A DNA stretch of 64,000 nucleotides from Methylotenera sp. (lineage in GTDB: Bacteria; Pseudomonadota; Gammaproteobacteria; Burkholderiales; Methylophilaceae): contig SHXQ01000002.1 of assembly GCA_009693255.1 (NCBI GenBank), forward strand, positions 95,420-159,419. The letters are read 5' to 3'. A program made the position numbers and the translations under genes. Under the pieces are notes generated by a model. The model saw nothing but the letters and a program-made list of their open reading frames with translations, was not told where the DNA came from and made no database searches. Shown one piece after another: positions 15,302 through 18,244 of the stretch (positions within the stretch are counted from its first letter, which is position 1; every line of letters starts with the position of its first letter).

Positions 15302-16513
15302 TCATGAAACTGTAAGTGCTAATAAGTCAGCTTTCAGATCGTCAACATGCTCCAAGCCAACAGCAATTCTGACTAGGCTATCATCAATTCCAGTGGCAGC
15401 ACGGTCTTCTGCCGTCACCCGACTATGGGTAGTGGTAGCCGGGTGCGTAATGGTACTTTTTGCATCCCCCAAATTAGCCGTGATTGAAATTAGCCTTGTC
15501 GCATCAATGAGCGCCCAAGCAGCATCCTGGCTGGTTTGTCCGGCCTTTGGCTTGACTTCAAAGCTAACAATGCCGCCACCATTACTTTGCTGTTGCATCG
15601 CCAGTGCATGTTGTGGGTGCGATACCAGTCCCGGATAATACACACGAGCCACATTGGGCTGCGCCTCTAGCCACTTTGCTAAGGCTAAGGAATTTTTTGC
15701 ATGTGCATCCATACGAATATAGAGTGTTTCCAACCCTTTTAAAAATACCCAAGCATTAAATGCGCTCATGGTGACACCGGCTGTACGCAAAAATCCGTAC
15801 ACAGGCTCCATTAACACTTTAGAGCCCAGTACTGCGCCGCCTAAACAACGACCTTGCCCGTCTATATACTTAGTTGCGGAATGTATAACAATGTCCGCTC
15901 CCAATGCTAGCGGCTGCTGAATTACTGGCGTGCAAAAACAATTATCCACCACTAAATGCGCACCTGCTTTATGCGCAAGGTCTGCCAAAGCGCGAATATT
16001 ACAGACCTCAGTTAATGGATTTGACGGCGTTTCAACAAAAAATAATTTAGTATTGACTGTCACGGCGGATTGCCATTCATCTAAATTAGTCAGAGAAACA
16101 AATGTGACCTGCAGGCCCCACCTAGCAAGAATATTGCTAAAAAGTTGCACGCTAGTACCAAAAATACTACGAGAAGCCACGACATGGTCACCGGCATTAC
16201 ACAAACCCATCACACAAGCCAATATTGCAGACATACCAGTAGACGTCGCCACACATTGCTCCGCACCCTCTAAAGCTGCCAGCTTGTTTTGAAACATGGT
16301 AACGGTTGGGTTGGTAAAGCGTGAGTAAATATTGCCCGGTTCGCTACCACCAAAGCGGGCTGCCGCTTGTGCTGCACTCTTAAATCTAAAGCTAGAGTTA
16401 AGAAATAACGCTTCTGAATTCTCACCAAATTCAGTCATCTCGCTACCCGCGCGCACAGCCAAAGTTTCTGCTTGATAAATAGGCACTTCAGGATGGTGCT
16501 GATGTTTAGTCAT
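15302..16513 (-). CDS. metZ: O-succinylhomoserine sulfhydrylase
   Basis: Cys/Met metabolism PLP enzyme (IHSATKYIDGQGRCLGGAV). Start taken at MTKHQHHPEV (ATG at 16513, preceded by GAGAAT) rather than the ORF-track start at 16537, which abuts the terminator hairpin. Confidence 0.9.
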   Translation of the reverse strand: MTKHQHHPEVPIYQAETLAVRAGSEMTEFGENSEALFLNSSFRFKSAAQAAARFGGSEPGNIYSRFTNPTVTMFQNKLAALEGAEQCVATSTGMSAILACVMGLCNAGDHVVASRSIFGTSVQLFSNILARWGLQVTFVSLTNLDEWQSAVTVNTKLFFVETPSNPLTEVCNIRALADLAHKAGAHLVVDNCFCTPVIQQPLALGADIVIHSATKYIDGQGRCLGGAVLGSKVLMEPVYGFLRTAGVTMSAFNAWVFLKGLETLYIRMDAHAKNSLALAKWLEAQPNVARVYYPGLVSHPQHALAMQQQSNGGGIVSFEVKPKAGQTSQDAAWALIDATRLISITANLGDAKSTITHPATTTHSRVTAEDRAATGIDDSLVRIAVGLEHVDDLKADLLALTVS

Positions 16514-16539
16514 AATATTCTCGTGTGATCTGGGCATTA

Positions 16540-16578
16540 AAAAACCCGTTTAAGCTGTTGTGGCCAAAACGGGTTTTT
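16540..16578 (-). terminator. Intrinsic terminator in the metZ leader (riboswitch expression platform)
   Basis: Minus strand AAAAAAACCCGTTTTGGCCACAACAGCTTAAACGGGTTTTTT: stem AAACCCGTTT/AAACGGGTTT followed by a U-tract, between aptamer and metZ. Confidence 0.85.
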
Positions 16579-16587
16579 TTCACTCGC

Positions 16588-16659
16588 TTTAGCTGTATTT
16601 ATAATGCGCCCGCAAGCTGAGTAAGACCTTGTTTAAGTTAAGTCACTCAAATCAGCGCA
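16588..16659 (-). ncRNA. SAM-II (SAM_alpha-like) riboswitch aptamer upstream of metZ
   Basis: Minus strand TGCGCTGATTTGAGTGACTTAACTTAAACAAGGTCTTACTCAGCTTGCGGGCGCATTATAAATACAGCTAAA; matches remembered SAM-II landmarks (GCGCUGAUUU ... GCUUGC ... GCGC ... AUAAAU-AGCUAAA) with perfect P1 TGCGC/GCGCA. Confidence 0.82.
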
Positions 16660-16664
16660 ATTTC

Positions 16665-16693
16665 ATATTATGCGTAACTTGGCCAAAGGTCAA
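16665..16693 (-). promoter_or_regulatory. Putative sigma70 promoter for the metZ riboswitch transcript
   Basis: Minus strand TTGACC (16693-16688), 17 nt spacer, TAATAT (16670-16665), just upstream of the aptamer. Confidence 0.55.
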
Positions 16694-16705: not shown

Positions 16706-18244
16706 TTATTCCACCACTTCATCTTCAAAGTTATCGATTAAGTTTAAATCCATTTGCGTACTAGCATTCGATGGTTTTTGCTTTTTATTCACATCACCCC
16801 GCGCAGCTTCAATGTTGGCTAAATAAGCTTCACTGATATCCCCTGTCACGTATTTTCCATCAAAACAAGAACAATCAAAATCTTGGATTTTAGGGTTGCT
16901 TAACTTAACGCCGCTCACCAATGCATCTAAATCTTGATAGATGAGGGCATCTGCCCCTATTTCTTGGCAAATCTCATCATCAGTTCGACCGGTGGCAAGT
17001 AGCTCATCGCGACTAGGCATATCAATGCCATATACGTTAGGGAAACGGACTGGCGGTGCAGCAGAGGCAAAGTAAACTTTGTTTGCGCCAGCATCACGCG
17101 CCATCTGCACAATTTGTTGTGAAGTCGTTCCACGCACGATAGAATCATCCACAAGCAATACGTTTTTACCTTTAAATTCTATACCAATCGGATTGAGTTT
17201 TTGACGTACCGATTTTTTACGCAAGGCTTGGCCCGGCATAATAAAGGTGCGGCCGATATATCGATTCTTAATAAAGCCTTCACGATAGTCCAAACCCAAG
17301 ACTATTCCGACCTGCAAGGCACTGGGCCGACTAGTGTCTGGTATTGGAATGACCACATCAATTTTTTTATCCGACCATTCGCGCTTAATTTTTTCCGCCA
17401 AACTTTTACCCATGTCTAAGCGAGTTTGATAAACAGAGACATCATCAATCACTGAATCTGGTCGCGCCAAGTAGACGTATTCAAAAATACATGGGTTTAG
17501 TTTAGGATTTTCTGCACATTGACGGCTATAAAAATTACCGTTCATGTCGATGAAGATAGCTTCCCCTGGCGCGACATCCCGCACCATTTTGAAGCCTAAA
17601 ACATCAAGCGCAACGCTTTCAGAGGCCACTATGTATTCCGTGCCTTGTGCAGTTTCAAGCTTGCCAATCACCAAAGGGCGAATGCCATTTGGATCACGAA
17701 ATGCTAGCAAACCAAAATTGGCTATCATCGCCACCACGGCATAAGCCCCTTTACAGCGCTTATGTACACCGCTCACCGCATCAAAAGTCATATCGGTATT
17801 GAGTATAGCATTATGCGAAGTTTGTTCAATTTCGTGCGCAAGCACATTGAGTAGCACTTCTGAATCTGAATTAGTATTGATGTGACGTAAATCTTGACGA
17901 AACATCTCAGATTTTAATTGTTCTGAATTAGTTAGATTGCCATTGTGTCCAAGTACGATACCAAATGGCGAATTCACATAAAACGGTTGCGCTTCTGCTG
18001 CACTAGAAGAACCTGCGGTGGGATAACGCACATGCCCGATACCGACATTACCCACCAGACTGCGCATGTGACGTGTTTGAAAAACGTCTTTGACTAGACC
18101 ATTATTTTTATGCATGAAAAATGTATTGCCATCAGTGGTCACAATGCCTGCGGCATCCTGACCTCGATGTTGCAATACTAACAAACCATCGTATAGCAGT
18201 TGGTTAACTGGGTTTTTACCAACAATGCCTATAATTCCACACAT
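16706..18244 (-). CDS. purF: Amidophosphoribosyltransferase
   Basis: [60 protein letters not shown]. Confidence 0.98.

Follow-up and report, generated by a model that had tools for sequence, protein, structure and literature searches.

The gap between purF and metZ in the 64,000-nt stretch of Methylotenera DNA analysed here (the window) raises the question of whether metZ is controlled by a SAM riboswitch, to which class such an RNA would belong and how it could act. A first-pass annotation had placed a SAM-II-type riboswitch with its own promoter and terminator in this gap. We found a promoter, a SAM-II-like pseudoknot, a hairpin inserted in its loop L1 and a strong terminator on the minus strand of the gap, and we consider it highly probable (about 0.9) that metZ is switched off at the level of transcription by a SAM-II-type (SAM_alpha) riboswitch that has an additional stem-loop in L1.

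Organisation of the purF-metZ gap

All the features described in the first-pass annotation, in position and content, are present on the minus strand. The layout of the region is as follows.

16706..18244, minus strand: purF, the upstream neighbour (TIGR01134)
16688..16693, minus strand: -35 hexamer TTGACC, from the sequence and the conserved TTGAC position in relatives
16665..16670, minus strand: -10 hexamer TAATAT, 17-nt spacer to the -35 hexamer
16654..16659, minus strand: P1 5′ strand, UGCGCU
16659-16649, minus strand: P1 5′ strand with UGAUUU (UGCGCU-GAUUU), TGCGCTGATTT
16649..16654, minus strand: UGAUUU of L1, invariant in alignment A1
16619..16648, minus strand: hairpin inserted in L1, 30 nt, 5′ arm GAGUGACUU (16648-16640), 3′ arm AGGUCUUACUC (16629-16619)
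16612..16621, minus strand: P2 5′ strand (pseudoknot), CUCAGCUUGC
16617-16612, minus strand: GCTTGC landmark
16605..16610, minus strand: P1 3′ strand, GGCGCA
16595..16604, minus strand: L3, A/U-rich, UUAUAAAUAC
16594-16585, minus strand: AGCTAAAGCG
16583..16593, minus strand: P2 3′ strand, GCUAAAGCGAG, of which GCUAAAGCG doubles as the candidate antiterminator 5′ strand
16563..16571, minus strand: terminator 5′ arm CGUUUUGGC, complementary to GCUAAAGCG and thus the candidate antiterminator 3′ strand
16539..16579, minus strand: intrinsic terminator hairpin and U-tract, stem CCCGTTTTGGC / GCTTAAACGGG, then TTTTTT
15302..16513, minus strand: metZ, O-succinylhomoserine sulfhydrylase, the putative regulated gene (NF006003, 684 bits against a cut-off of 522)

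The promoter, TTGACC-N17-TAATAT (16693-16665), would start transcription near 16658, in the first bases of P1. A simple scan of a 451-base region returned two promoter-like sites against 0.8 expected from shuffles, which is weak alone; TTGAC is also kept 35-38 nt upstream of the P1 GCGC in 112 of 156 related elements. The leader folds more stably than its shuffles (z = -3.4), and the terminator (16579-16539) ends in U6. We took ATG 16513 as the metZ start; an alternative in-frame ATG further upstream, at 16537, immediately follows the terminator. In SAM-II, the UGAUUU stretch is the triplex and SAM-pocket strand.

Membership of the SAM-II group

A scan of the whole window against Rfam at gathering thresholds gave no match, and the case is therefore built on comparative evidence. 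The first-pass annotation had proposed a check against RF00521 (SAM_alpha), with the lack of a match above threshold to count against it, and taken literally this is what the check gave: at permissive settings RF00521 was the best Rfam match (16668-16572, E 0.011), yet its 21.2 bits stay below the gathering score of 36 bits, and the alignment contains a stretch of 32 positions against 10 in the consensus. The element is the best RF00521 match in its own genome too, where no second copy was found. Elsewhere, homologues score 37-52 bits, and since insert-free Burkholderiales homologues pass the threshold at loci that are also found by our own covariance model (R1), the low score of the window element is not decisive. 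The architecture agrees with the class: a P1 stem stands directly 5′ of UGAUUU with its 3′ strand after GCUUGC, the 3′ part of the loop forms the P2 pseudoknot with the GCUAAAG region, and the pocket stretches UGAUUU, UUGC and GCUAAA are invariant in alignment A1 and align to the RF00521 consensus. The targets, by family models, are genes of methionine and SAM synthesis, metZ here and metX, metH and metK elsewhere. No match in the window was obtained for SAM-II long loops (RF01726, up to E 10) or SAM-V (RF01826), and in six relatives with a long L1, relaxing the threshold to E 0.05 still gave no Rfam match, these two families included. Hence, homology and architecture place the element in the SAM-II group, formally sub-threshold in Rfam, and it would be expected to bind SAM.

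Over 85 aligned homologues, 96.8% of the cells of P1 and the P2 pseudoknot are paired, compared with 21-54% (at most 53.6%) in slid controls, and the covariation score of 0.109 (0.059 when shuffled) was reached by none of 500 shuffles. For P1, 96.6% of cells are paired and two pairs show changes on both sides, counts that lean towards the structure because P1, but not P2, was part of the model used for aligning the sequences. Most of the covariation lies in the P1 closing pair (UA/CG/AU/UG/GU/GC) and the P1 pair adjoining L1 (CG/UG/UA); one Burkholderiales copy (L202) has GCGUC/GACGC in place of GCGCC/GGCGC. P2 is 94.8-100% paired over the 85 sequences with mostly invariant pairs, which fits the model and adds little covariation.

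Within Methylotenera, G/A at the last P1 position (16610) changes together with A/T just 5′ of GCUAAAG (16594), columns 55 and 71 of alignment A2. This co-change suggests a tertiary contact at the P1/P2 junction.

Distribution of the element

metZ was located in 57 of 61 relatives and the element was present at 25 of the 30 metZ loci read, in agreement with the proposed metZ target. As for the other loci, metZ follows purF directly, with no element, at two (L033, L035), the terminator is kept and the aptamer decayed at L021, metZ lies elsewhere at L012, and the sequence is cut off at L029. Loss (L033, L035) and decay (L021) of the switch thus occur inside the genus. R1, made from 14 congeneric (Methylotenera) aptamers only, matched 44 of 52 genomes when run within the genus, and 243 of 399 across Burkholderiales; most of its matches outside Methylophilaceae span about 60 nt, the size of a minimal SAM-II. 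RF00521 itself was found in 52 of 120 Burkholderiales genomes at E 0.001 (20 of 120 over the cut-off), in 0 of 14 control genomes and in none of the family-f1 genomes drawn. Where both tables list a locus, the coordinates of the two models agree (for example G071:C71, G142:C28, G052:C2 and G139:C28). This coincidence, together with the thresholds, argues for one continuous family whose Methylophilaceae branch falls under the Rfam cut-off; these copies are missed by automatic annotation because of the hairpin in L1.

At several Oxalobacteraceae loci, L056 and L074 among them, the element lies 5′ of metH (methionine synthase), which Leyn et al. 2014 (PMC4239095) do not name as a target of the metXZ element. 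At L057 and L203, a SAM-II element 5′ of metK is followed about 1.4 kb downstream by an above-threshold SAH riboswitch (RF01057). Oxalobacteraceae and Burkholderiales copies (L073, L083, L094 and L202) have a second variable hairpin in L3, besides or replacing the one in L1.

The L1 hairpin

The segment between UGAUUU and GCUUGC had been described as about 31 nt, as holding a potential hairpin and as longer than in a minimal SAM-II. It is indeed 31 nt and holds a GAGTGAC..GTCTTACTC hairpin, and the insert proved to be real, recurrent and variable in length. When named genomes were scanned with a pattern, copies with a long L1 turned up in Methylophilaceae, Oxalobacteraceae and other beta-proteobacteria; among the matches listed, the inserts are 12-39 nt long and unrelated in sequence, yet many form clear hairpins, for example GTACCGTGAATCACGGTA and CGGAGTTGCCGGCAACGGCGGCTCCG. 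The Methylotenera L1 stem reads GACUU/AGGUC or GGC/GCC, with A-U replaced by G-C at one pair, above GAGU:ACUC. As a set, the inserts fold better than expected (mean z -1.27 over 107 distinct inserts, 28% at p <= 0.05). A strong independent hairpin in each Methylotenera copy was considered and rejected, the short stem rarely beating shuffles alone.

ACUC is a strand both of the L1 hairpin and of P2b, and the segment after GCUAAAGC again reads GAGU, so that ACUC has two mutually exclusive partners in the window. Folding predicts that the lower L1 hairpin (GAGU:ACUC) holds the P2b strand as long as no SAM is bound. More tentatively, and at somewhat less than even odds, the L1 hairpin could be a second switching element in which ACUC picks the 5′ GAGU (no SAM) or the 3′ GAGU (P2b, SAM), so that SAM-II in Methylophilaceae might couple opening of the aptamer to antitermination through a duplicated GAGU, and SAM-II might be the main, so far unrecognised, methionine control of beta-proteobacteria.

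A conserved candidate antiterminator

The aptamer strand AGCUAAAGCG, which would lie in P2 on SAM binding, is complementary to the terminator 5′ arm and hence a candidate antiterminator. With counts taken over sequences that are related to one another, 9-10 of its 10 pairs can form in 61 of 66 family elements, and a contiguous helix of at least 9 pairs occurs in 76% of family elements against 2.4% of shuffles. Outside the family group the excess is small (12% against 2.2%), and other lineages may thus use other antiterminators. The terminator 5′ arm is near-invariant (entropy 0-0.4 bits in the first four inner columns) and its 3′ partner varies (0.9-1.6 bits), which is more than a terminator alone explains. 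At the outermost antiterminator position pairing varies with no clear covariation. Truncated transcripts fold into the antiterminator in 64 of 66 cases, the P1 letters of the other family members having been set to one consensus. These results support the transcriptional control that had been proposed for metZ.

A different antiterminator, GCGGG:CCCGU, which resembles the proposal of Leyn et al. on GC-rich regions, was rejected: it offers only about five pairs, and several relatives have GCGAG for GCGGG with CCCG unchanged.

In apo folding of the growing window transcript, P1, the full L1 hairpin and the antiterminator are predicted until the terminator 3′ arm emerges, after which the terminator forms. 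The whole leader with the terminator (-37.0 kcal/mol) beats the antiterminator state at equilibrium, and the switch would therefore have to be kinetic, depending on whether SAM has locked P2 in time. We propose that RNA polymerase starts just 5′ of P1. In the absence of SAM, the L1 hairpin would keep the P2b strand (ACUC), leaving GCUAAAGCG free for the emerging terminator 5′ arm CGUUUUGGC; the GCUAAAGCG:CGUUUUGGC antiterminator would then allow transcription of metZ. When SAM is plentiful, it would bind in the P1/P2 pseudoknot and CUCAGCUUGC would pair with GCUAAAGCGAG; with the antiterminator strand sequestered, the terminator would form and transcription would stop 5′ of metZ. By complementarity, the partners of GCUAAAGCG are mutually exclusive, and the model predicts that SAM turns metZ off.

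Relation to known elements

In the definition of SAM-II by Corbino et al. 2005 (PMC1273637), the promoter lies as far from P1 as it does here and terminators are likewise present. A similar control logic has been described for the SAM-II switch of S. meliloti metZ (PMC9373788). The window element shares with SAM-II (RF00521) the P1 stem and P2 pseudoknot, the landmarks UGAUUU, GCUUGC and GCUAAAG, a promoter just 5′ of P1, a terminator 3′ of P2 and a methionine biosynthesis target. It differs in its 30-nt L1 hairpin, in CUC:GAG in P2b, in its score under the Rfam cut-off and in its host, Methylophilaceae instead of alpha-proteobacteria. SAM-II long loops, which Weinberg et al. 2010 (PMC2864571) reported from Bacteroidetes and marine samples, likewise combine a SAM-II core with enlarged loops. 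SAM-V shares its pseudoknot core and binding site with SAM-II (PMC6061858) but acts by translational control, unlike the transcriptional control proposed here. The literature that we searched contained no report of SAM riboswitches in Methylotenera.

The element itself is not new: two earlier listings in related bacteria gave it other names and did not recognise it as SAM-II. Leyn et al. 2014 (PMC4239095) found SAM_alpha only in two alpha-proteobacterial orders, Rhizobiales and Rhodobacterales, and described a 'novel' orphan metXZ element of beta-proteobacteria, with a pseudoknot and terminator, 5′ of metZ in three Methylophilales. The genes, the taxa and the topology are the same here, a pseudoknot leader and terminator 5′ of metX or metZ in beta-proteobacteria including Methylophilales, and on these three, rather than on an alignment of the metXZ element, we identify the window element with it. 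The earlier description named no ligand and guessed an antiterminator through GC-rich regions 3 and 4, whereas here the strand is GCUAAAGCG and the class SAM-II. Khoo et al. 2012 (PMC3521395) reported an sRNA near purF, metZ and metX, Bp2_Cand287, detected by RT-PCR. In Burkholderiales, 13 of 19 matches of the corresponding Rfam family RF02424 (Bp2_287) lie antisense over R1 or RF00521 SAM-II matches; a 14th (L202) lies over a partial R1 match, with SAM-II and then metZ on the opposite strand. In the window, RF02424 remains below its cut-off (19.5 bits against 70) on the plus strand (16553-16621), again an antisense overlap. Hence, RF02424 appears to model the wrong, antisense strand of the SAM-II element, the complementary strand having been taken as the sRNA gene.

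Alternative explanations

It seems unlikely that the RNA works mainly through translation or RNA stability, or that termination releases it as an sRNA that acts in trans, like RZ of S. meliloti. The S. meliloti metZ leader does give an sRNA and a SAM-dependent stabilisation (PMC9373788), but here the metZ start and a weak Shine-Dalgarno-like GAG lie outside the aptamer, past the terminator, and the conserved alternative structure is an antiterminator. Decidedly improbable, in our view, is that the beta-proteobacterial metXZ element forms a class of its own, a SAM-II lookalike whose pseudoknot senses SAH, methionine, homocysteine or another ligand. Such a class would fit the 'novel' label and the two-order range of SAM_alpha in Leyn et al., as well as the sub-threshold Rfam score; however, the SAM-II landmarks are kept, many homologues exceed the RF00521 threshold, and the targets are methionine and SAM synthesis genes, as in SAM-II.

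The loss of the element at L033 and L035 and its decay at L021 would be expected if the gap held a constitutive purF terminator and a leftover aptamer with no regulation. We give this very little credence, as the element has its own promoter, its core and antiterminator strand are near-invariant in 44 of 52 congeners, and a terminator between promoter and metZ would silence metZ if read-through were not controlled.

Implications

Three things are new: the element is assigned to SAM-II, a variant with a hairpin in L1 is described, and a specific, conserved antiterminator is proposed that is precise enough for testing by mutation. The assignment supplies a ligand class for the metXZ element known since 2014, SAM being the probable ligand, and suggests that the sRNA family RF02424 of Rfam is annotated on the wrong strand. 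With it, SAM-II, so far a mainly alpha-proteobacterial class, becomes a common control in Burkholderiales as well.
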